64,000 nt of DNA. Source: Cavia porcellus (lineage: Eukaryota; Chordata; Mammalia; Rodentia; Caviidae). The notes beneath the pieces were generated by a model. That model had not been told where the DNA came from and ran no database searches. It saw only the letters and a list, made by a program, of their open reading frames with translations. Positions 30,674-57,430 of this stretch are shown here, one piece after another. A program made the translations under genes and the position numbers. Positions within the stretch are counted from its first letter, which is position 1; the number at the start of each line of letters is the position of its first letter. The DNA lies in contig NW_026947488.1 of assembly GCF_034190915.1 (NCBI RefSeq), positions 7,636,501 through 7,700,500 on the forward strand, written 5' to 3'.

Positions 30674-30679
30674 TCCAGG
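30674..30679. repeat. Target-site duplication, left copy
   Basis: TCCAGG lies directly before the left LTR and is repeated exactly after the right LTR (38785-38790). A 6-bp duplication fits betaretroviral integrase. Confidence 0.9.
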
Positions 30680-31253
30680 TGTCGTGAGTGTCTAGAGCAC
30701 TCTGAACTCCGGGCAAGGTAAACACGCACGCCTTGTCGGGACACGGGGGGTACAGCGCTTGGAAAAGAAAGACAGGAGAGACACCTTTGCTGTCTGCACC
30801 GCGTTACACTGCACTGCACTGCACTGTACGCACAATCTTTATTTTAGGATTCATATATAGTAAACCCGATCAATTCACAGAGCCCAGATAATTAAGTAGT
30901 GAAAAGGCATTCTTTGTGGCAAGCTACAACGTGACAGACTACAATGTTTATTCTAAAACTATCTAAGTGAAGTAAATAATCACAACCAGTTCTCACAACT
31001 TCTCTAGCCCAGGAAGAAATTCATTAGCTCAAGAATGTTGTTAATTTGTCTGCTGTTAGTGTCACAAAGGGTGGCCAGCCACTTCCTCAAGACTTCTGCA
31101 AAACAAAGCCAGCTCACAGTATGGATTCCAGAGGGTGAGGGCTCACTGAGAACAGGCATTCCCGTTCTACCTCCTTCTCGCATACCAGGGCGGCTATTGT
31201 AAATTGCAGGTTAGAGGGGGTTGGGCCTACAAAGTGACACCTCATCCCCCACA
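30680..31253 (-). repeat. 3' LTR of the provirus
   Basis: 574 bp, minus orientation, beginning TGTGGGGGATGAGG and ending ...TCACGACA when read in the proviral sense. It contains a TATA-like TATATAT, an AATAAA poly(A) signal (30838-30843 on the + strand as TTTATT) and a GTGCA pentamer array just after it. The poly(A) signal sits only about 15 nt after the TATA-like motif, which implies it lies in U3 and R is short. No difference from the other LTR was found by eye. Confidence 0.95.
30838..30843 (-). terminator. LTR poly(A) signal AATAAA
   Basis: AATAAA on the minus strand within the 3' LTR, the expected site for ending proviral transcripts. The same hexamer is at 38369-38374 in the 5' LTR. 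Confidence 0.7.
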
Positions 31254-31585
31254 CTTCCTTCCTTTTTATTTTTTAACAATAATTTCCATAAGATCAGGTT
31301 ATTAATAGCATTTCGTCTTATGCAGTAAAAATACACAAGAACTATGGCAATGAGAACTATAATTAAACTAAGTCCCATGCCACTAAAAGTGTGGGTAATG
31401 CTCTGCCAGATTTCTTTGGAATCTAATCCTTTCAAAGATTGAGCAAGCAATTGCGCGAATTGTGCTAGAGATTCATCATCATTTTGCTTTGCAAAATCCT
31501 TGTCAATTTGATTATGCAAAGATTCTATTTCCTCCTGGGCAGAGGTGTTTCCATTTAAATACATTCTAATCATTTCCCAATTCAT
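31211..31585 (-). pseudogene. env: env TM C-terminal remnant, out of frame with env
   Basis: This frame carries the C-terminal part of the retroviral transmembrane (TM) subunit: an amphipathic helix-rich stretch, then a strongly hydrophobic anchor of about 20 residues (LSLIIVLIAIVLVYFY), then a short basic cytoplasmic tail. Its last codons lie inside the LTR (31211-31253). It is in a different register from the long env frame upstream, with a 20-nt overlap at 31566-31585, so a small indel near that overlap has split env in two. The ATG at 31583 is not a natural start. With the upstream frame it accounts for a full-length Env family member, but as it stands no membrane-anchored Env can be read continuously. 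Confidence 0.8.
31254..31267 (-). promoter_or_regulatory. Polypurine tract (PPT)
   Basis: On the minus strand AAAAAGGAAGGAAG sits immediately before the 3' LTR start (TGTGGGG). Its position and composition are those of the plus-strand primer for reverse transcription. Confidence 0.85.
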
Positions 31586-33392
31586 GTTCTGTCTGATTAT
31601 AAGGTCGTTGGGTTATACAGAAAGTAGTTGAATTCCAATCACATTTTAAAAACACTTGATGCTGAAGAGCCAATATTTTTCTACCCATCCATTCAACTGT
31701 TTGTTTAAGGAGGTCTATTTGTTGTTGTAGTTTGGCGTTTATTTGCCACTGAGTTAACCAAAGTTCATGAGAATTCTCATGCCATAATTCGACAACATGT
31801 TTTTTTTGCAAAGAGGTATGTAAAGCTACTCCTGAGACTGCTGCTAGAGAGGCTACAGTTATCAGACTTAACAGTACAGCAACCACTATTCCAATAAATC
31901 TTTTTGTACGTTTTAACAGATGTTTAAAAAATTCAGTAGTAACAGAAATTACCGGGTCTTGAGACCATGGTCGAGTTAAATTTACAGGCAACCAAATATG
32001 AGTTTTTTGTTGTAACAGCATAACTGTATAAGGCTTAGTGAAATTTAGTGTGCTATTTAAGCATGTAAACAATTGACAATTTAAACAAGTACAAGAAAAA
32101 TGTGTAAAATTAAAAGTTCCCACTAAAAAGACATAAGGCAGAGGTGCACAAACAGTAATATTATACATTTTAAACCTAGTAAAATTATAAGTAGTAGATA
32201 CAGATCGACTAGTCCCTGAATAGGAAACATTGTACAAGGTTACAGGTTGCATAGCGGCTGGAATCTTCCAAATATGATTTTGAAGGTGATGAGGGTATTC
32301 TTTGGCTGCAACAGCAGGGTTAGCGATTCCACCATCTCCCCACCACAAGAGAGCCGTCTTTTGTTGAAATATAGGAGCTCCGTCAGTTATTTTCTTTGGA
32401 TCTGGAAGACTATACACAACAGAGAGATTACATCTTGTCTCATTCCATTCAGCACATCCATTAACGAATTTTCCAAATGGTCCCCAAATAATATACCCAT
32501 CAATATTTTTAGCAAATTTTCCCATACATAGTTGCCAAATTATGGGATTATAAGAAATATTTTTATAAGTGAATTCAGGGCATACAGGAAATGTATTTGT
32601 ATCAGGTGCTGTTAAATTTTTCCAGGTAACATTAAAGGTTTGAGCAGCCAAGGCTTGAAGCCTTGTTCTTTTGTTGCCTGCTTTTATTCCATGTTGAATC
32701 CAATACTGCCATCCCAGAGGGACGCAAGGCGGTTCCCCAATGTAAATAGGCCTTTGATTACCATAATAAGTAAAATTGAATAATGTCCCATCATCTTGAT
32801 TGTGGGGGGTTAAATCAGCCCACGGTGCTGACAAAATTTCTCTAGGTGTGGTATAAAGTAAAATATCACTAGTTCCCCATTTTACAGGTTCTAATAAAGG
32901 GGGGTTTGGAATATATGCCCAGTACGAATGCGGAGGTACCTCAGTCCCCGACGCAACAGTGAGCAAGGCACATAAAGCTAAAAACAAGTTTTTAGGGTTT
33001 AAAGGCTTTCCTGCTTGAAGGACAAGCCGTTGCCCTTCTATGGTCAATTTCTTTAATTGTCCCCATGTAGGGAGGGGATTTAAATTTGGTCGCTGTGAGC
33101 GGCGGGATTTTCTTAGCTGTAATCTGGCCATGGCTGCGATAGGAACAAACTCAGCATCCTCAGCTTCTAGCTGGTTTCGCGCTCGCTTCTGAAGGCACGG
33201 TTCCGGTTCCTTGGGGAGTTGTCTCCGGGGCTGGTGAACAGGATCTGGAGACGCGGGTCCTGATCCATCGTCCAGGGACCCACTGCTGAATTCCATTTTC
33301 TGTGGAGATATAACCAAAACCTTTCCCCCTATAGAGCAATGTGCCCCTCTCCCATTCAGCCTCTGGAGCTGTTTTAGTCCAAATAGGTTCAT
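31566..33392 (-). CDS. env: Env (SU and truncated TM), frame broken at 3' end
   Basis: A 608-codon frame for a betaretroviral-type envelope glycoprotein. It has a long leader with an Arg/Lys-rich patch (residues about 69-101), a hydrophobic signal segment (about 135-149, NLFLALCALL), a surface subunit with many N-x-S/T sites and a CxxC-type cysteine cluster (CTCLNCQ at 434-440), a furin-type site RTKR (495-498), a hydrophobic fusion-peptide-like segment directly after it, and a coiled-coil-like TM ectodomain with a KCDWNSTTFC disulphide-loop region. It then stops at residue 608, before any membrane anchor, because the downstream TM sequence continues in another frame. The start is uncertain: Met34 or Met88 could equally be used, and the mRNA is expected to be spliced. 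It overlaps the end of pol by 233 nt. The truncation suggests a non-anchored product, if any. Confidence 0.85.
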   Translation of the reverse strand: MNLFGLKQLQRLNGRGAHCSIGGKVLVISPQKMEFSSGSLDDGSGPASPDPVHQPRRQLPKEPEPCLQKRARNQLEAEDAEFVPIAAMARLQLRKSRRSQRPNLNPLPTWGQLKKLTIEGQRLVLQAGKPLNPKNLFLALCALLTVASGTEVPPHSYWAYIPNPPLLEPVKWGTSDILLYTTPREILSAPWADLTPHNQDDGTLFNFTYYGNQRPIYIGEPPCVPLGWQYWIQHGIKAGNKRTRLQALAAQTFNVTWKNLTAPDTNTFPVCPEFTYKNISYNPIIWQLCMGKFAKNIDGYIIWGPFGKFVNGCAEWNETRCNLSVVYSLPDPKKITDGAPIFQQKTALLWWGDGGIANPAVAAKEYPHHLQNHIWKIPAAMQPVTLYNVSYSGTSRSVSTTYNFTRFKMYNITVCAPLPYVFLVGTFNFTHFSCTCLNCQLFTCLNSTLNFTKPYTVMLLQQKTHIWLPVNLTRPWSQDPVISVTTEFFKHLLKRTKRFIGIVVAVLLSLITVASLAAVSGVALHTSLQKKHVVELWHENSHELWLTQWQINAKLQQQIDLLKQTVEWMGRKILALQHQVFLKCDWNSTTFCITQRPYNQTEHELGND

Positions 33393-35886
33393 TAATCACA
33401 AAAGGCTGTTGTTGCTGTTCAAAATGTTTTTCAGCTCTTGTTAATATTTCACCTTGTGGTAAATTGAGAAAATTTAAAATAAACAATGCTTGATGCAGTA
33501 ATGTTTTTGGACTGTTTTGCAATTTAAACAGTATTGGTATCTGAATATCCTCCTGACTCCTCCTTTTTAATTTTTTAATTTGCAACTTAAGAGTGCCATG
33601 TGCTCTTTCAACAATAGCTTGACCCTGGGGGTTATATTCAATCCCTGTAATATGAATAATATTATGGAGATCACAAAATTGTTTAAATGTTCTGCTAGTA
33701 TAAGCAGGTCCATTATCTGTTTTGATTTTAGAAGGAATTCCCATAACTGCAAAAGTCTCCAATAAATGTACAATAACATTTTTAGTGGATTCTCCCTGTT
33801 GAGCAGTAGCCCATAGAAATGAAGAATAGGTATCAATAACTACATGTACATAAGAAAGCCGACCAAAAGAAGGTACATGTGTAATATCCATTTGCCATAA
33901 TTCATTAGGTTGAGTTCCTCGAGGGTTGACACCTGCGGGAATAATTCTTAAATGTAATGGTCTACAAATAGGGCAGGCTTTTACAATCTGTTTAGCTTTT
34001 GTAAAAGGTATCTTATATTTAAGATGCAAATGTCCTGCATTTGCATGATTAAATTGATGTTCTTCAACGGGTGTGGTGAACATAACTAAGGAATCCACTG
34101 CATTGTTACCTGATACTAATGGTCCGGGTAACTGAGAATGAGAACGTAAATGAGTAATAAAATAAGAATGATTTCTTTTTTGAACATGTATTTGTAAATT
34201 TTGAAATAAAGACAATAAAGCAGGCTTATTAGAATATAACACAGCTGAATAGATATTTGTCACTACTCCAACAGAATAGGCCGAATCGGCTATAATATTA
34301 ATAGGTTGGTTATGAAAATCTAAAAACACTTGTAATATAGCAAAAAGTTCATTTTGTTGTACAGAGTTAAAATTTGTCTGACGTACCCAGTAAGATTTTT
34401 GAGTCCAATATGCAGCTTTATTTTTAGATCCATCTGTAAATATAGTCAAAGCTTGTGGAATTGGCTGTACAGCTAATAAGGTATTAACCACAAATTGTTG
34501 ACGTCTAAAAAAATCCCATAATTTACTTTTAGGAAAATGATATGAAAAAGTTCCCATGAAATCTGCTAAAGCAATTTGTAAGGTTTCAGTAATTGACAAC
34601 AAATATTCCCATTGTTCCTTAGTTAAAGGGATAACTATATTGTTTATATCTTCTCCTATCAAAGTTATAGAACGAGCTCTACCATTCATAATTAAAGCTG
34701 CAACCATGTCAATATAAGGCATAACATTTTTAGATTGCTTAGTTTTAGTGAATACCCATTCTACTGGCATAGCATTTTGACCTAAAACTGCAGAGGGATA
34801 TTGAAAAGTATTAATAATATATAAAGTTAGAGGCAATTTAGGATCAATCCTAATTAAAAATGCATCCTTAATTCGTTGTTCTACAAACTGTAATTCTTGC
34901 TCGGCTTTTGTTGTTAAAGAACGAGGGCTGGATGGATCTGAAGAGCCCTGTAGAGTAGCAAACAAATGCTGTAATGCATGGGTAGGAATACCTAGTGTGG
35001 GACGAAGCCAATTAATATCCCCTAATAATTTTTGAAAATCATTTAAAGTGGATAACTTATCTCTCCTAATAGACATTTTTTGTGGAATCACCTTTTGTCT
35101 AGTAAGAATATATCCCAAATAATGACTAACTTCTTCCTTTTGAATTTTATCCTGTGCTATTACAAGTCCAAACGGAGAAAAATATTGAGGTAAAGTTTTT
35201 AAAATATCTTCTAAAACATTTCTATCACTATATGAGAATAAAATATCATCCATGAAATGAGCCGTATAAACCTGAGGCCATCGTGCACGCACTGGTTTTA
35301 ATGCTGCATCAACATAAATTTGACATATAGTTGGGGAATTTTTCATTCCTTGGGGTAAAGTCCTCCATTGATATCTTTGATAAGGTCTTTGATAATTTGT
35401 TTGAGGAATTGAAAAAGCAAACCGTTTTCTATCTTCTGGATGTAATGGGATGTTAAAAAAACAATCTTGTAAATCTATAACATATACAAACCAACCAGCA
35501 GGGAGCGCTGAGGGTAAAGGAATGCCGGGCTGAAGGGCTCCCATTTGAATTAAGGATGAATTTACAGCACGTAAGTCCGTTAAAAGTCTCCACTTGCCTG
35601 ATTTCTTTTTTATCACAAATATTGGAGAATTCCAAGGAGATGTGGATGGTTCTATGTGATGTAGAAAAAGCTGTTGATCAATCAATTCCTGCGCTGCCTG
35701 TAACTTTTGAGTAGTCATAGGCCACTGATCTATCCAAATTGGGTCATCATTTTTCCAATTAAGCTTTAAAGGATTCATTTCCCTAGGCTGTAGAAACATG
35801 CAAAATATTAAAAATGTATATAAGCTCCCCATTGTTCTAATACATCTCTTCCTAAAATAGAAACTGGTACCTCTAAGATATAAGGT
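33160..35886 (-). CDS. pol: Pol: reverse transcriptase, RNase H, integrase
   Basis: Open from just after a TAA at about 35887. The first ATG (35832) gives 890 residues, but the protein is expected as a Gag-Pro-Pol fusion by -1 frameshifting. Reverse transcriptase comes first: catalytic Asp in VIDLQDCFF (120) and the FMDD box (193-196), where the usual Tyr is Phe. RNase H follows with its acidic residues at D467 (FTDGS), E495, D516 (IIADSAYS) and D580. Integrase has the HHCC zinc site (H596, H601, C620, C623), then D649 (WQMDITH), D706 (KTDNGPAY) and E742, with 35 residues between the last two as in the D,D-35-E triad, and ends in a GRWIR-type C-terminal domain. No stop or frameshift interrupts it. 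It overlaps pro by about 79 nt and env by 233 nt. All key residues look intact. Confidence 0.93.
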   Translation of the reverse strand, partial: TLYLRGTSFYFRKRCIRTMGSLYTFLIFCMFLQPREMNPLKLNWKNDDPIWIDQWPMTTQKLQAAQELIDQQLFLHHIEPSTSPWNSPIFVIKKKSGKWRLLTDLRAVNSSLIQMGALQPGIPLPSALPAGWFVYVIDLQDCFFNIPLHPEDRKRFAFSIPQTNYQRPYQRYQWRTLPQGMKNSPTICQIYVDAALKPVRARWPQVYTAHFMDDILFSYSDRNVLEDILKTLPQYFSPFGLVIAQDKIQKEEVSHYLGYILTRQKVIPQKMSIRRDKLSTLNDFQKLLGDINWLRPTLGIPTHALQHLFATLQGSSDPSSPRSLTTKAEQELQFVEQRIKDAFLIRIDPKLPLTLYIINTFQYPSAVLGQNAMPVEWVFTKTKQSKNVMPYIDMVAALIMNGRARSITLIGEDINNIVIPLTKEQWEYLLSITETLQIALADFMGTFSYHFPKSKLWDFFRRQQFVVNTLLAVQPIPQALTIFTDGSKNKAAYWTQKSYWVRQTNFNSVQQNELFAILQVFLDFHNQPINIIADSAYSVGVVTNIYSAVLYSNKPALLSLFQNLQIHVQKRNHSYFITHLRSHSQLPGPLVSGNNAVDSLVMFTTPVEEHQFNHANAGHLHLKYKIPFTKAKQIVKACPICRPLHLRIIPAGVNPRGTQPNELWQMDITHVPSFGRLSYVHVVIDTYSSFLWATAQQGESTKNVIVHLLETFAVMGIPSKIKTDNGPAYTSRTFKQFCDLHNIIHITGIEYNPQGQAIVERAHGTLKLQIKKLKRRSQEDIQIPILFKLQNSPKTLLHQALFILNFLNLPQGEILTRAEKHFEQQQQPFVINEPIWTKTAPEAEWERGTLLYRGKGFGYISTENGIQQWVPGRWIRTRVSRSCSPAPETTPQGTGTVPSEASAKPARS

Positions 35887-36572
35887 TTAATAACAGCAAC
35901 TTGACCCTCTTCATTTTTTATATGTATATGCATTGTGGCTTGTCCAATTGTATTTACTGGAGTTTTACTTACTCCTTTTATATTACATGGAATAATAGTA
36001 TAAGTAATATGAGAAGGCCAATCAGTAGGTTTAACAATAGTAATATCCGAGCCTGTATCTATAAGAGCCTGAATTTTCTTATGCTCAATAAAAATATTAA
36101 TAAGAGGTTGTTGTTGAGATAATTTAGCTGTCCACATTACATTAATAGGGTTAGTGCTGCCGAACCCTCCTGTTCGCTGAACAACAGAGGATCCTATTGG
36201 GATATAAGGCAGTAAAATGAGTTGAGCTATACGTTCTCCCTTTAATAATTTATAATCTGTAAGTGAGGACATCAGAATTTGAATTTCTCCAGTATAGTCT
36301 GCATCTATAATTCCTAAGTGAACAGTAATGCCTTTTTGATTTAAACTAGATCTACCCGTGAGCAAGCCAAAAGTTCCCGCAGGCAGAGGACCAAAAATTC
36401 CTGTAGGAATTCTCACGGGAGATTGTCCTCCTCTTAATTCTACATCTTTTAAGGCTGGTATGTCCACTGCGGCACTGTGTTGGGTGGCTGGCTGTAGGGA
36501 GAATACGGTAGATTTACCCCATTGATTTGTCCGGGGCCCGGGGTAGGGCCCGTTCTCCCGTTTCCCTTTTGT
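35808..36572 (-). CDS. pro: Pro: dUTPase fused to aspartic protease
   Basis: Open frame following a TGA at 36573-36575, one base back from gag. It is entered by ribosomal frameshifting, so the GTG at 36467 is not a true start. Numbering from that codon, the dUTPase part shows motifs GRSSL (38-42), GIIDADYTGEI (52-62), GERIAQ (77-82) and GGFGSTN (100-106). The first dUTPase motif (AVDIPAL) straddles the codon chosen as start. The retroviral aspartic protease follows with the active site IDTGSDI (DTG at 137-139) and the conserved LGRDVL near the end. The gene ends 79 nt into the open pol frame. A dUTPase encoded in pro is characteristic of betaretroviruses. The frame is intact. Confidence 0.92.
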   Translation of the reverse strand, partial: TKGKRENGPYPGPRTNQWGKSTVFSLQPATQHSAAVDIPALKDVELRGGQSPVRIPTGIFGPLPAGTFGLLTGRSSLNQKGITVHLGIIDADYTGEIQILMSSLTDYKLLKGERIAQLILLPYIPIGSSVVQRTGGFGSTNPINVMWTAKLSQQQPLINIFIEHKKIQALIDTGSDITIVKPTDWPSHITYTIIPCNIKGVSKTPVNTIGQATMHIHIKNEEGQVAVIKPYILEVPVSILGRDVLEQWGAYIHF

Positions 36573-38143
36573 TCAGCTGAATTAACTTGTTTACTCCTGC
36601 ATTCACGAGCCCAATGATTTCCCTTCTTGCATTTTGGACATAAGCCAGGAGCTCTAGATCTCTTTTTTTGATCATTGCCTACAAGTTTTGGACAGGCCCT
36701 CTTTACATGTCCTATCTGACCACAATTAAAACATTTTAAAGACTGTTCCTTTTTAGATTGCCAATTAGTCCACGTGGTTGCCATGGTCTCAGCAAACAGT
36801 TGCATTTTCCTAGATTCTGAATTTAAATCTTTACATTGTTTTATAAAATTGTCAATCGTTCCAGTATCTTTTATTGGAATTAAAGCCCTTTTGCATTCAT
36901 CATTAGCATTTTCAAAAGCTAACATTTTTAAGAGATGCTCTTGTAAGTCTTGTCCCACTACTGTTTTTTCTATAACATTTTGAAGTCTTGCAACGAACTC
37001 AACATACGGTTCATTGGCTCCTTGCAGAACTTTAGCCCAAGATCCATATTCTGATCCTTTAGGCCGTATTTTATCCCAAGCTTTTAAAGCAATATCTTTT
37101 AATTGAGCATGAATCTCTCTTGGAGCTCCTGCCTGATGCTCAACAGTATCAAAGAAACCTGTACCAGAGAGCATGGGATAAGAAAGGAGTCTAATATTCG
37201 GATCTCGATCGTCAGCATTTTGTCTTGCCTTTTCCGCACAACCTTCCATAAACCACATGTGCCACTGTAAATATTCTGGCTCCTTTAAAAGAATTTTGGC
37301 CAAGGCTTTCCAATCATAAGGAGCAAGATTACCATAGTGATCTGCTACCGATGTTATTAATTCTCTAGTGTAATGAGCCTGAGGGCCATAAAGGGTTACA
37401 GCCTTTTTTAATTTTGCTAAATCATCCATATTAAATGCTTCCCATCTAGGGGGAACTGCCTCTCCATCTATTGGCTGAGGTCTGATTACAGGGAAAGCAA
37501 AGGCAGGCTTTTCCTCATCAGAATCCCCTAATTTTGGTAAATCAGCCAAAGCTAGCTTGGCTTTACTCCAATTAGGGTTAGATGGAGGAGGTGCAGAGGG
37601 AACTATAGGCGGGTTTTGCTTAACGGAGAGTTGTTTCACCTCTTGTGTTAAATGTTGTATAGCCTGTAAAATTGGGCGATTGTCATAATTTGATATTGCT
37701 GCGGCAGCTAAAGCTGAGTCGGCTGTAGTGGATTTTACTTTTAGTTTGGACGCCTTTTCACTACTTAAAGCGATAGCGTCATTTTGAACTACATTCTGCT
37801 CCTCCTCTGTGAGGGGCAATTCCTGAATAACTGGCTTAATTTCTAGTTGAAGATTTTCTATAATATGTTCATCTTCCATAGCTTTTAATAAAGAGTACAC
37901 AACCGACCAAATAGCCCAAAAACGTAAAGGAATCTTTTCCTCCTGTTGCATAGCCCTTTCTATACTAACCCTTGCCTTCCTCCATACTTCTACATCCAAA
38001 GTTCCTTCATCTGGAAACCAAGGATTATATTCTTTAATTGTATCAATACACCTATCCAAGTCAGCTGACCTGAGCGATATGCCATATATAGATAATAAAT
38101 GTTTAAGAATTTTTAAGAAAGGAGAGGAAGCAGATTGTCCCAT
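36449..38143 (-). CDS. gag: Gag polyprotein
   Basis: A 564-residue structural polyprotein with an ATG start 26 nt after the major splice donor. MGQSAS at the N terminus gives a Gly2 myristoylation site for matrix targeting to membrane. A PSAP late-domain motif (182-185) would recruit ESCRT for budding. Capsid follows, with the major homology region QGANEPYVEFVARL (374-387). Nucleocapsid has two CCHC zinc knuckles: CFNCGQIGHVKRAC (471-484) and CPKCKKGNHWAREC (502-515). The C-terminal tail is Pro/Gly-rich. Length and domain order are normal for a betaretroviral Gag. The frame is complete with no stop, and its last 124 nt overlap pro, where a -1 slippery site is present. Coding capacity for particle formation appears retained. 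Whether the protein is made is unknown. Confidence 0.95.
   Translation of the reverse strand: MGQSASSPFLKILKHLLSIYGISLRSADLDRCIDTIKEYNPWFPDEGTLDVEVWRKARVSIERAMQQEEKIPLRFWAIWSVVYSLLKAMEDEHIIENLQLEIKPVIQELPLTEEEQNVVQNDAIALSSEKASKLKVKSTTADSALAAAAISNYDNRPILQAIQHLTQEVKQLSVKQNPPIVPSAPPPSNPNWSKAKLALADLPKLGDSDEEKPAFAFPVIRPQPIDGEAVPPRWEAFNMDDLAKLKKAVTLYGPQAHYTRELITSVADHYGNLAPYDWKALAKILLKEPEYLQWHMWFMEGCAEKARQNADDRDPNIRLLSYPMLSGTGFFDTVEHQAGAPREIHAQLKDIALKAWDKIRPKGSEYGSWAKVLQGANEPYVEFVARLQNVIEKTVVGQDLQEHLLKMLAFENANDECKRALIPIKDTGTIDNFIKQCKDLNSESRKMQLFAETMATTWTNWQSKKEQSLKCFNCGQIGHVKRACPKLVGNDQKKRSRAPGLCPKCKKGNHWARECRSKQVNSAEQKGNGRTGPTPGPGQINGVNLPYSPYSQPPNTVPQWTYQP
36531..36566 (-). promoter_or_regulatory. 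gag-pro -1 ribosomal frameshift signal
   Basis: The heptamer GGGAAAC (36560-36566, read as G GGA AAC in the gag frame) is of the X XXY YYZ type used for -1 slippage. Seven nucleotides later a very GC-rich hairpin can form from two GGGCCC blocks separated by six bases. The position inside the gag/pro overlap and the -1 register of pro agree with this function. Confidence 0.85.
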
Positions 38144-38162
38144 TTCCCCGTAATAAAATTAT

Positions 38163-38170
38163 ACTTACCT
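38163..38170 (-). promoter_or_regulatory. Major 5' splice donor of the provirus
   Basis: On the minus strand AG|GTAAGT is a full consensus splice donor, located between the primer binding site and the gag ATG. It would serve production of spliced env (and any accessory) mRNA. Confidence 0.8.
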
Positions 38171-38188
38171 TCCTAAGCGACCTTCGGA

Positions 38189-38208
38189 GTCCCTGAATTC
38201 GGGCGCCA
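38189..38208 (-). promoter_or_regulatory. Primer binding site, tRNA-Lys3 type
   Basis: The minus strand reads TGGCGCCCGAATTCAGGGAC, two bases after the end of the 5' LTR. It matches an 18-nt Lys3-type site except that two extra bases (TT) sit between CGAA and CAGGGAC. The first eleven bases, which prime, are intact. Confidence 0.85.
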
Positions 38209-38210
38209 CT

Positions 38211-38784
38211 TGTCGTGAGTGTCTAGAGCACTCTGAACTCCGGGCAAGGTAAACACGCACGCCTTGTCGGGACACGGGGGGTACAGCGCTTGGAAAAGAA
38301 AGACAGGAGAGACACCTTTGCTGTCTGCACCGCGTTACACTGCACTGCACTGCACTGTACGCACAATCTTTATTTTAGGATTCATATATAGTAAACCCGA
38401 TCAATTCACAGAGCCCAGATAATTAAGTAGTGAAAAGGCATTCTTTGTGGCAAGCTACAACGTGACAGACTACAATGTTTATTCTAAAACTATCTAAGTG
38501 AAGTAAATAATCACAACCAGTTCTCACAACTTCTCTAGCCCAGGAAGAAATTCATTAGCTCAAGAATGTTGTTAATTTGTCTGCTGTTAGTGTCACAAAG
38601 GGTGGCCAGCCACTTCCTCAAGACTTCTGCAAAACAAAGCCAGCTCACAGTATGGATTCCAGAGGGTGAGGGCTCACTGAGAACAGGCATTCCCGTTCTA
38701 CCTCCTTCTCGCATACCAGGGCGGCTATTGTAAATTGCAGGTTAGAGGGGGTTGGGCCTACAAAGTGACACCTCATCCCCCACA
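38211..38784 (-). repeat. 5' LTR of the provirus
   Basis: 574 bp, seen by eye to be identical to the 3' LTR. In proviral sense it begins TGTGGGGGATGAGG and ends TCACGACA. The TATA-like TATATAT (about 38384-38392), AATAAA (38369-38374) and GTGCA repeats follow one another in that order. Transcription would run leftward, away from CBLN4. Confidence 0.95.
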
Positions 38785-38790
38785 TCCAGG
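38785..38790. repeat. Target-site duplication, right copy
   Basis: TCCAGG, identical to 30674-30679. Confidence 0.9.
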
Positions 38791-40119
38791 TGCCTCCTAC
38801 AAGGCTACCCCAGCTTGGAAGATGACAGACCTCATTTCTGTAGCACCTGCTGCTTTGGGAGCAACTTGGTATTTCATTCAGATGCCAGAAAGAGAGAGGA
38901 TCTGGCAGCCCCAACGCAGGCAGCGAAGCCAGGTTGCTCAAGCCATTGGGTTCTGTTATCAAATATCCTGGAGACCATCCCTGTTCAGTTGACTGTGGTG
39001 AGAAAATTGATGACCGTGTGACTCACAACATCCAAAAGCTTCTCATAGCAGGAGACAACAGAAAATGTCAGGTTGCATTATCAGACCACCTTGACTAACA
39101 GAAAACACGGAACAGAGACCTTCATCTGAAAGTATTCAGGAGGCTTTGATTTTAAATTTTACTGAGACTCATTTATACTAGTTTTTGCTACAAGATGAAT
39201 GGCTGATAAATTACATACTATTTGAAAATATTCAAAAGGCTCCAACCAGTTCACCAATTTGCTTACTGCTTAGATTAGTGACATTCAACGTAATAACAGA
39301 GTGTAGTCTAGCACCTGCCATCCAGAATTGACACTGGCCCGGGGTGGGGTGGGGGAATCTAGAGGCCCCCATGGCTCTATGACTGAACCTTCAGTTAAAT
39401 TATTATTGGGAAGAGGGAGATGGGGAATTACCAACCAGTGGAAAGTCTCCTATTGAAACAAGAAATGCAATAGGGTACTTATGGTTAGACACCTAGGCCA
39501 CTGTAAGATCTTAAGGGGACTAGAGACAGATCCAGCTAGAGCTGTGGAGAGGGCTGAATTCAATGCCAAGGTGGATGCTCTTCTCTCAGGAAAGAGTGCA
39601 GACCCACCAGCCTCAAGGACATTGCTCAGCAATCCTTCTTGCACCACTAAGTAGTCAACACACTTTGGGGAGTTCCAAATGGCCAGTGCTGTCCAGGAGG
39701 CTGCTGTTTTGATCAAAGCTGTGGTGTCTGCCCTACGGCACCTGGGAGTCAAGAAGGAAATTGGTAGGAAGGGCCGTGACCCCACACACCACAGAACCCA
39801 CAGGAAGTCAGAGATCTTAGTGGAGCGCTGCCCTCTCAGAGAGCGTCGGGGACCTCTCCAAGTGTGTGCACCCCATCGCAGAGGCGAGCCTCCCCTTGGC
39901 TTCGCGTGGTGGCCTCGGAAAAGGAAGTCAACACCTGGAGATCAGAGGCCAAGGTGGTAGTGGGGTGGCACATCAAAGGGAGAGAAAGAGGCTGTGTTCT
40001 CCCGTGCTGCGCTCTTCTCCTTATTTTTGTGTTTTAGGTGGGCATGGTTTTTCTGGAGACTCATCCTGGCTGAATTGAGTTCCCCTGTTTTTCTGGCCTT
40101 GCTCGGGGTGGATTGGCTT
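38791..40119. other. Upstream flank of CBLN4, no gene seen
   Basis: Between the provirus and the CpG island. Open frames at 38645-39021 and 39450-39960 overlap on both strands and carry no domain. A 60-base stretch at about 39815 resembles one in CBLN4 intron 1 (about 44110), suggesting a shared old repeat. Confidence 0.5.
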
Positions 40120-40721
40120 GGAGTGGGAAGGCGCACCCCTGCGGCTTCGGAGGTGCATCTTCCCTGAGCAGAAGGAAGGAATCCAGCACCTCCTCCCGGC
40201 CGCCCCTGAGGGGCCTGGTCTGCCCCGAGGCTTTCCTGAGCGAGTCAGGCCCCAGGGATTTTTAAGGCTGGCTCTTGGCCAGGCACGGTGGGGACAGCGG
40301 CAGCCGATCCCCGGTTCCAGGCAGTGCGCGCGCAGGTCTGCCGCGGCTCACCCAGCTCCGCAGCAGCCGGGCTGGCAGCGCCGCGCTCGGCTCCTGGAAC
40401 GCTTGGCCGCAAAGTCCGGAGAGCCAGGGCGCCTGCAGCCGCTCCGCTGGCCTAGACCGGGGAGGGGCGAGCGGGCGCGGGGCCGGGACTGGCGCTGGGC
40501 TGCAGGAGTCTTTCTCTGGGCACCCGCTCTCTGCGCTGCGCGCTCATGGGGGGCTGAGTGGCCTCGGACCTTGCCCACCAGCCGTGCTTTGCACCCCGCT
40601 CACTCCGGGGTGCGTCCAGCGTCAGAGAGGATCTGCTTGCTGGGGTCACCGGACGCCCTCGCCCTCTTTCCCCAGAGTTGTGGGGTTGAGCAGAGCCAAC
40701 CCCAGCTGGGCGCCGCGCTCC

Positions 40722-40729
40722 TATAAATA
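40722..40729 (+). promoter_or_regulatory. CBLN4 TATA box
   Basis: TATAAATA in the context CTCCTATAAATAGCGCG. It is the only good TATA box in the CpG island and predicts a start of transcription near 40750-40755, giving a 5' UTR of about 790 nt. Confidence 0.65.
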
Positions 40730-40975
40730 GCGCGCGTGTGCCCGCTTCGCGCTCTCCCGGTGGCGCGAGCAGAGACAAAGTTGTGCGCGCGGACTGGGGA
40801 AGGAGAAGACCCGGGGAGCCCAGCCACCCGGCAAGGCGCCCTGGAACTGATCCCGCGAATCGGCGCTTTCCGTCCGGGGAACTCAGCAAACCGCTGCCCA
40901 CCTACGCTGGAGTGACAACTGGCTTTGGCGAATTTTAGACCGAGCGGAGGAAGGAATATCGCGGGCTCCCTGGCC

Positions 40976-40990
40976 ATGAACGCAGCCTAG
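40976..40990 (+). other. uORF 1 in the CBLN4 5' UTR (4 codons)
   Basis: ATG AAC GCA GCC TAG. It is the first ATG after the predicted transcription start and may reduce or gate translation of the main frame. Function is inferred from position only. Confidence 0.55.
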
Positions 40991-41220
40991 CGTCTCCCCG
41001 GCCCGGGAAGCGCCTTGTGCCTGTGTAATACGCCCCAGTGCAAGCCTCGCTCGCGCAGGACCAACACCGCGCCGCTCGGCGCCCGGCAGCCTCGCGGCTC
41101 CTGCGAGAGTCCCCTGTCCTCGCTACTCCGTGGTTCACCCGGGGGTGCTTGGGTTGGGGGCGAGATTTGATTTTCCTTTTTCCCTTTGAGGCGCGATTGT
41201 GAGGTTTTGGCGACTTTTAG

Positions 41221-41271
41221 ATGTCTAGGAACAAGGTGGCTGCAGGAGCCCCAGGCAGGGCTGCTTGTTGA
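41221..41271 (+). other. uORF 2 in the CBLN4 5' UTR (16 codons)
   Basis: A second upstream ATG (context TTTTAGATGT) ending at TGA 41269-41271, well before the main start. Confidence 0.5.
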
Positions 41272-41300
41272 AAGGGACCTGTGCGGGGCAAGGGTTCTGC

Positions 41301-41435
41301 ATGAGCGCCTTAAAGGACAAAGGCGACAGAGCCAGCGAGAGAGCTCCAGGCGAGACTTTGACCCACGGAATTGGTGGAAGTGTGCGTGTCGCCTCCGCCG
41401 CCGCCGCGGCTGCTCCTGCAGCGCTGTCGATCTAG
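41301..41435 (+). other. uORF 3 in the CBLN4 5' UTR (44 codons)
   Basis: The third and last upstream ATG. It spans the CGCC repeat, encoding an Ala-rich tail, and stops at TAG 41433-41435, 106 nt before the CBLN4 ATG. Out of frame with CBLN4. Confidence 0.5.
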
Positions 41436-41475
41436 CAGCCACTGGCATCTTCTGCGCTCCGGGACCCCGGGGTAG

Positions 41476-46518
<5,043 letters not shown>

Positions 46519-55979: not shown

Positions 55980-57430
55980 CCACCACAGCAGGTGTGTGCA
56001 CACACGTGTGGGTCACATCTGATTTCGGGCACAGGTGTGCACATGTGTGTGATTTCTGGTACACGTGATTTTGGGGATGCTTATGATTTCTGGCATTAGT
56101 GTAACTAGGGCATGCATGTGAATTTGGGCACGCTTGTGATTTGGGACACATATTTCATTTCTGGAATGTGTGTGAATTTGTGCAAACGTGTGAATTGGTG
56201 CATGCATGTGAATTTGTGCACAAGTGTCAACTCTGGCACGTGTTTCTGGAACATGTGTCATTTTGCGCATGCATGTCAGGCAGCATCCATGACATTTCTG
56301 GTACACGTGTCAATTCTGTCATGCATGGCACTCCAGATACATGTGTGTCTTCTGGCATACGTGTCACTTTCAGCACACATGTCATTGCTGTCACACGTGT
56401 CATTTCTGGGATAAGAGTAATTTGCAGCACAGATGTCAATTCTGGCTTGCACATCAATTTGAGCATGTGTTTTAGTTTGAACATGTGTGTTATTTTGGGC
56501 ACACATGTCAATTTGGGCATTTATGTCAATTCTGGCACACGTGTCATTTCTGGTAGGCATGCGATGCTGGATACAAATGTGAATTTCAGCACCTGTGTGA
56601 TTTCCAGCATGCGTGACATTTCCGGCATGCATTTCAGTTGCAGCACGTGTGTCATTGCCAGCATGCGTATCAATTCTGGCATGCATGTCAACTCCTATAC
56701 ACAGGTCACTTTGGATACTCATTTCATCAAATTGACATACGTGTTGACACATTTGTAGCACATGTGTGATTTCATACACACGTGTCATTTCAGACATGCA
56801 TGTCATTGCCGGCATGTGTGCCTACCCAAGAGTCATTTCGGTCACAGGTTTCAATCCTGGCATGCGTGTCATTTTGGGCACAGGTATCACTTCCAGCATG
56901 CATGTCAGTTCCTGTGCACAAGTCAGTTCTGGTATGCATATTAATTTGTGCACATGTGTCTTTTCCTGCATGCATGTCAATTTGGGCTTGTGTTTGATTT
57001 TGGAGATGTGTGTTATTTTGAAGATGTGTTTGAAAATGGGCATGAGCCTCATTTCCAGCACATGTATCATTTCAGGCACGTGTATGATTTTGGGCACACG
57101 TGTGATTTTGGGCATGCGTGTGTACATGCCTGTGATTTCCAGATTGTGTATTATTTCAGACACATGTGTGATATCTGACACACATGTGATTTTGGTCACT
57201 TTTGTGTGCATATGTGTGATTTCTGGCATGCATTTTATTTCCAGTATTCCTATGTACCATGCGTGTGATTTCGGGGCACCCATTTGATTTCAGGCATGCA
57301 CGTGCACACGTGTGGGATGTGTGTGTGTGATTCTGAGCACTTTTGCACACCCATTTGATTTCAGGCATGCCTGTGCATGCGTGTGGATCACACGTGTGAT
57401 TTCGGCATGTACGTGTGCATTTGTGGGGCT
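55980..57430. repeat. 18-bp minisatellite, about 80 degenerate units
   Basis: A tandem array of a degenerate 18-bp unit of the form GTGTCATTTCTGGCATGC. Successive examples around 56595-56690 are 'gtgtgatttccagcatgc', 'gtgacatttccggcatgc', 'gtgtcattgccagcatgc' and 'gtatcaattctggcatgc'. Because 18 is a multiple of three, frames stay open on both strands for up to 205 codons with a six-residue period. These are not genes. The unit junction (GCATGC, ACACGTGT) is self-complementary, so the array is rich in short palindromes and contains many CACGTG boxes. Confidence 0.9.

Follow-up and report, generated by a model that had tools for sequence, protein, structure and literature searches.

Bovine retrovirus CH15 (BoRV CH15) is placed as an unclassified Betaretrovirus in the NCBI taxonomy. 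In the available sections of the paper describing it, the virus comes from diseased cattle with encephalitis, was found in 0 of 130 healthy controls and is argued by the authors to be exogenous (PMC8686636); a word search of that available text gave 0 occurrences of guinea pig, Cavia, marmot or rodent. For the guinea pig itself, the accessible part of one paper reports 1,802 endogenous retrovirus (ERV) loci dated to 0–10 My and names a young IAP family (PMC4102558). In the available part of another, which gives guinea pig families less than 1% divergent, the ERV entries are two ERV1 LTRs with no ERV2 (PMC3183009); absence from this list is weak evidence, because the 2011 list needs at least five copies and rests on Repbase. 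A literature search in which few subscription journals were covered returned no paper whose title describes the provirus reported below. A BrdU-activated guinea pig retrovirus was reportedly likened to B- and D-type viruses. That virus is cited as Lerner-Tung et al. 1995, a source represented here by its reference line, and the NCBI taxonomy also holds a "Guinea pig type-C oncovirus" under Gammaretrovirus.

The analysis of a 64,000-nucleotide stretch of Cavia porcellus DNA (hereafter the window) revealed a provirus at positions 30680–38784 on the minus strand, whose features are collected in table 1. We hold with high confidence that it is a class II provirus of the CH15 clade, with a guinea pig germ-line entry likely within about the last million years, with gag, pro and pol open and with an env frameshift that would remove the membrane anchor. 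It resembles CH15 in Pol (about 58–59% identical), in Gag (46%) and in Env (43–46%), in the apparent type of primer-binding site, and in an env gene that overlaps pol and extends into the LTR in both. Unlike the window provirus, CH15 has LTR ends of TTG/CAA and an 18-base primer-binding site, and its reverse transcriptase (RT) motif is YMDD where the window has FMDD. Models from other hosts, known here as proteins alone, make up five of the eight named non-Cavia models chosen: those of the marmots Marmota monax and Marmota flaviventris and the seals Neomonachus and Halichoerus are 45–56% identical in Env (P0127, P0128 and P0129) and 46–49% in Gag (P0134 and P0137). Solved chains of HERV-K (HML-2) were among the best structure-library matches for the Gag capsid (6ssj) and for Env SU and TM (9nnd); the best structure match of Pol was 7sr6, which we take to be the HERV-K RT, the entry itself being labelled only "Polymerase".

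Table 1. Features of the provirus and of the adjoining host gene, in window coordinates
Feature	Positions	Strand	Remarks
Target-site duplication TCCAGG	30674..30679	.	Copy adjoining 3' LTR
3' LTR, 574 bp	30680..31253	-	Identical to 5' LTR over 574/574 bases
Second env piece, other frame: rest of TM, membrane span, tail	31211..31612	-	Stop inside LTR
First env piece (stop to stop; ATG at 33296): leader, SU, TM start	31566..33395	-	Ended early by frameshift
pol frame: RT (FMDD), thumb, RNase H, integrase	33160..35886	-	908 codons
pro frame: dUTPase and aspartic protease	35808..36572	-	254 codons
gag frame (ATG at 38143): matrix, capsid, two zinc knuckles, one PSAP motif	36449..38158	-	569 codons stop to stop
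GGGAAAC, candidate -1 slippery site gag/pro, in register (G GGA AAC)	36560..36566	-	Sequence pattern, candidate only
Primer-binding site, apparently tRNA-Lys type	38189..38208	-	Two bases longer than the printed 18-base site of CH15, otherwise matching
5' LTR, 574 bp	38211..38784	-	LTR nearest CBLN4
Target-site duplication TCCAGG	38785..38790	.	Copy adjoining 5' LTR
CBLN4 first coding exon	41542..41832	+	Host context outside provirus; exon end inferred from GT after FDQ codon

The initial annotation had judged the two LTRs identical by eye and proposed aligning them base by base; this comparison returned identity at 574 of 574 positions without gaps. The target duplication, also described there as perfect, proved to be so on both sides. 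The LTR ends are TG...CA, and both these ends and the 6-bp duplication, which are features of betaretrovirus-type (class II) ERVs, are present. The LTR also carries a four-fold CAGTG run, equal in length in the two copies. No further LTR copies were detected within the flanks of the window at E 1e-3, and scans of the whole window against Rfam and for tRNAs (the latter run with the bacterial code) gave no match.

The gag, pro and pol frames contain 0 internal stops and yielded the expected Pfam domains, namely Gag_p10, Gag_p24, Gag_p24_C and two zinc knuckles in Gag, dUTPase and RVP in Pro, and RVT_1, RVT_thumb, RNase_H, Integrase_Zn and rve in Pol, in line with the earlier description of three genes open over their full length. 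Another class II feature, the arrangement of gag, pro and pol in three overlapping frames with the dUTPase joined to the protease, is likewise present. Some class II members carry a G-patch after the protease. This domain was absent from the Pfam matches of Pro at E 0.001, which is not taken as excluding class II, since not all members have one. The statement that catalytic residues were in place stood in part. The acidic residues of the RT (D138, D213 and D214), of RNase H (D485, E513, D534 and D598) and of the integrase (D667, D724 and E760) fall in columns invariant among four clade members, and the protease DTG is present as read by eye; the RT motif, however, is atypical, being FMDD (Phe codon TTC) against YMDD in all 13 Pol proteins compared, which were chosen among the 120 matches listed of 506 found. 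An RT bearing FMDD might be a weakened enzyme.

Transcription from the 5' LTR would be directed away from the host gene CBLN4. The unspliced RNA would be translated into Gag and, via a -1 slip at the candidate GGGAAAC site, into Gag-Pro, and Pol would arise from a further slip; with the heptamer patterns used, no canonical pro-pol slippery heptamer was matched. Reverse transcription would be primed by a tRNA-Lys-type primer, despite the longer site. The primer-binding site matches the 18 bases printed for CH15, except that two additional bases follow position 11 and create an EcoRI-like GAATTC. This two-base insertion is odd, because a site copied from a tRNA should not carry two extra bases.

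The initial annotation left env unmentioned. This gene runs from the ATG at 33296 to 31211, with its TM part split by a frameshift that ends the first frame after 609 codons, stop to stop. The description of the provirus as nearly complete is right, but env is broken by this frameshift. Both env pieces align to a single Cavia porcellus model of 694 aa annotated as "endogenous retrovirus group K member 13-1 Env polyprotein-like" (P0126), itself unbroken where the window copy is frameshifted. Over the open part the two are 99% identical; they differ at 6 of 572 residues ahead of the break and at 1 of 121 beyond it, the 573rd compared position lying at the break and outside these substitution counts. 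Because the frameshift places the membrane span in another frame, the Env of this copy would end before its membrane anchor. A truncated Env of this kind would have no hold on the membrane, and the copy would thus be confined to spreading inside cells unless another member of the family supplied an Env. Replication competence calls for all four genes unbroken, and here env is broken by the frameshift. Since P0126 is unbroken, there is at least one further copy, or else this copy exists in a second, differing allele or assembly.

The env break could instead be an assembly or sequencing error in a copy that is truly unbroken. No other frame break was seen in the provirus, and Env matches the Cavia model before and after this one, both of which would fit such an error; young proviruses, on the other hand, often bear single lesions, and we consider an error unlikely. 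The Env leader shares a PLPTWGQ-KKL stretch with the Env of CH15. The CH15 leader matched Pfam HERV-K_REC weakly (E 7.8e-6, below the curated cut-off) and the window leader gave no match to this profile at E 0.1; a Rec-like role of the leader in RNA export would be a guess.

Five of the seven Env differences from P0126 fit G-to-A changes in the window copy, and in four of those five the next base is A. In our own reading, three of the five (residues 102, 185 and 628) can be assigned to the window copy by comparison with at least one further species. We treat this as a hint only and do not claim APOBEC-type hypermutation (APOBEC3 editing), the count of differences being too small and the Trp codons in gag, pro and pol, 39 in all, standing in stop-free frames.

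The age of the insertion was estimated from the single LTR pair with three assumed substitution rates: 0 differences over 574 bp gave 95% upper bounds of 0.58, 1.19 and 2.6 My at 4.5e-9, 2.2e-9 and 1e-9 changes per site and year, respectively. The observed/expected CpG ratio of the provirus is 0.439, against 0.181–0.315 in 36 of the 40 flank windows, a range that excludes the four adjoining a CpG island (0.499, 0.52, 0.375 and 0.222). Retained CpG agrees with the youth of the provirus and, together with the identical LTRs and the perfect duplication, upholds the earlier view of a young element; the insertion likely occurred within about the last million years, judging from these sequence features. 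It may, as the initial annotation suggested, be polymorphic in the species, and its lineage may be recently active there. An older insertion whose LTRs were homogenised by gene conversion, either between the pair or from a further copy, would likewise yield 574/574 identity, and the env break means that at least one lesion had already arisen in this copy or its parent. This explanation appears very unlikely to us, given that gag, pro and pol are stop-free across 1,731 codons, that CpG is better kept than in the 36 flank windows, that the duplication is perfect and that Env shares 99% of its residues with another Cavia model.

The placement of this likely recent provirus was examined in a Pol tree of 24 rows, comprising the window and 23 of the 120 matches listed, with a midpoint root used for drawing only. 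The window groups with bovine retrovirus CH15 and two metagenomic proteins (100/100), and the next to join are two Scotinomys proteins and one further metagenomic protein (100/100). Simian type-D and IAP groups lie apart from it. Pol identity is 58–63% within the CH15 clade versus 40–45% outside. This phylogeny, which the initial annotation had suggested as a check, groups the window with betaretroviruses and supports its assignment to the betaretrovirus type (class II). The tree covers simian retroviruses, CH15 and IAP, with MMTV, JSRV and HERV-K Pol absent from it, the last because no HERV-K Pol was among the matches listed. By its sequence, Pol is closer to CH15 than to the other betaretroviruses in this tree. 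Membership in the young guinea pig IAP megafamily of PMC4102558 can scarcely be credited: the available part of that paper does report a young IAP family in Cavia porcellus under a label that may be broad, and both are class II, but the window Pol falls outside a separate clade (100/100) that includes two IAP-named proteins (Chinese hamster CHIAP34 and an IAP Pol-related protein, themselves class II Pol and 42–43% identical) and the window provirus has an env gene, the comparison with that family being by description rather than by sequence.

The other two genes added less to the placement of the provirus as a CH15-clade member. An Env search in which scoring was limited to the 7,994 candidates with most words in common gave six matches, from Cavia, marmot, seals and CH15; in the resulting tree the window and Cavia sequences group at 100/100, and CH15 sits on a long branch, for which a long-branch warning was given. 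Gag had 26 matches, 13 of them HIV, and its tree took in eight, the 13 HIV sequences and five shorter or mixed ones being left out; there, the window is part of a polytomy that includes two branches of great length. Given the Gag polytomy and the long branches of Env, neither tree fixes the branching order within the CH15 clade. Two scans for relatives in viral contigs confirmed none, within a scope that possibly leaves out records of the window's own genome.

On the host side, cerebellin-4 was the best match among solved chains for the gene starting at 41542. Upstream of this gene, 2,758 bp separate the CBLN4 ATG from the end of the provirus, which is oriented opposite to the gene and has its 5' LTR nearest to it. 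A likely recent LTR adjoins the CpG-rich region of CBLN4 and faces away from it (38784–41542). An effect of the insertion on CBLN4 is possible. The SINEs of the flanks are B1-like and ID-like, of rodent type, with partial Alu and MIR matches too; these were compared with consensus sequences, and B1 and Alu share an origin. The rodent-type SINEs and the near-identity of Env, a single protein family, to the Cavia model make Cavia the likely host on the sequence evidence. Comparing flank with flank gave five short repeat pairs, of which 0 are linked to the provirus. A degenerate minisatellite with units of about 18 bp and longer units of 36–84 bp occupies 56108–57287 and contains, on both strands, frames that stay open for more than 150 codons.

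Taken as a whole, the new find is a real, likely recent and env-defective provirus of the already known CH15-like kind. Its nearest named Pol relative is a virus of encephalitic cattle, and with a young germ-line representative in a laboratory rodent the host range known for the CH15 clade would become broader. We tentatively put forward a broader and somewhat doubtful proposal, in which the BrdU-inducible endogenous retrovirus of the guinea pig would originate from this family and the CH15 clade would be a mammal-wide betaretrovirus group (cavy, marmot, seal and cow) rather than a cattle oddity, one still mobile in the guinea pig germ line, where copies with an open env would supply those in which it is broken. 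With the provirus sequence it becomes possible to test what the BrdU-inducible virus of guinea pig cells is, and a likely recent insertion beside a synaptic gene is usable for comparing guinea pig strains.
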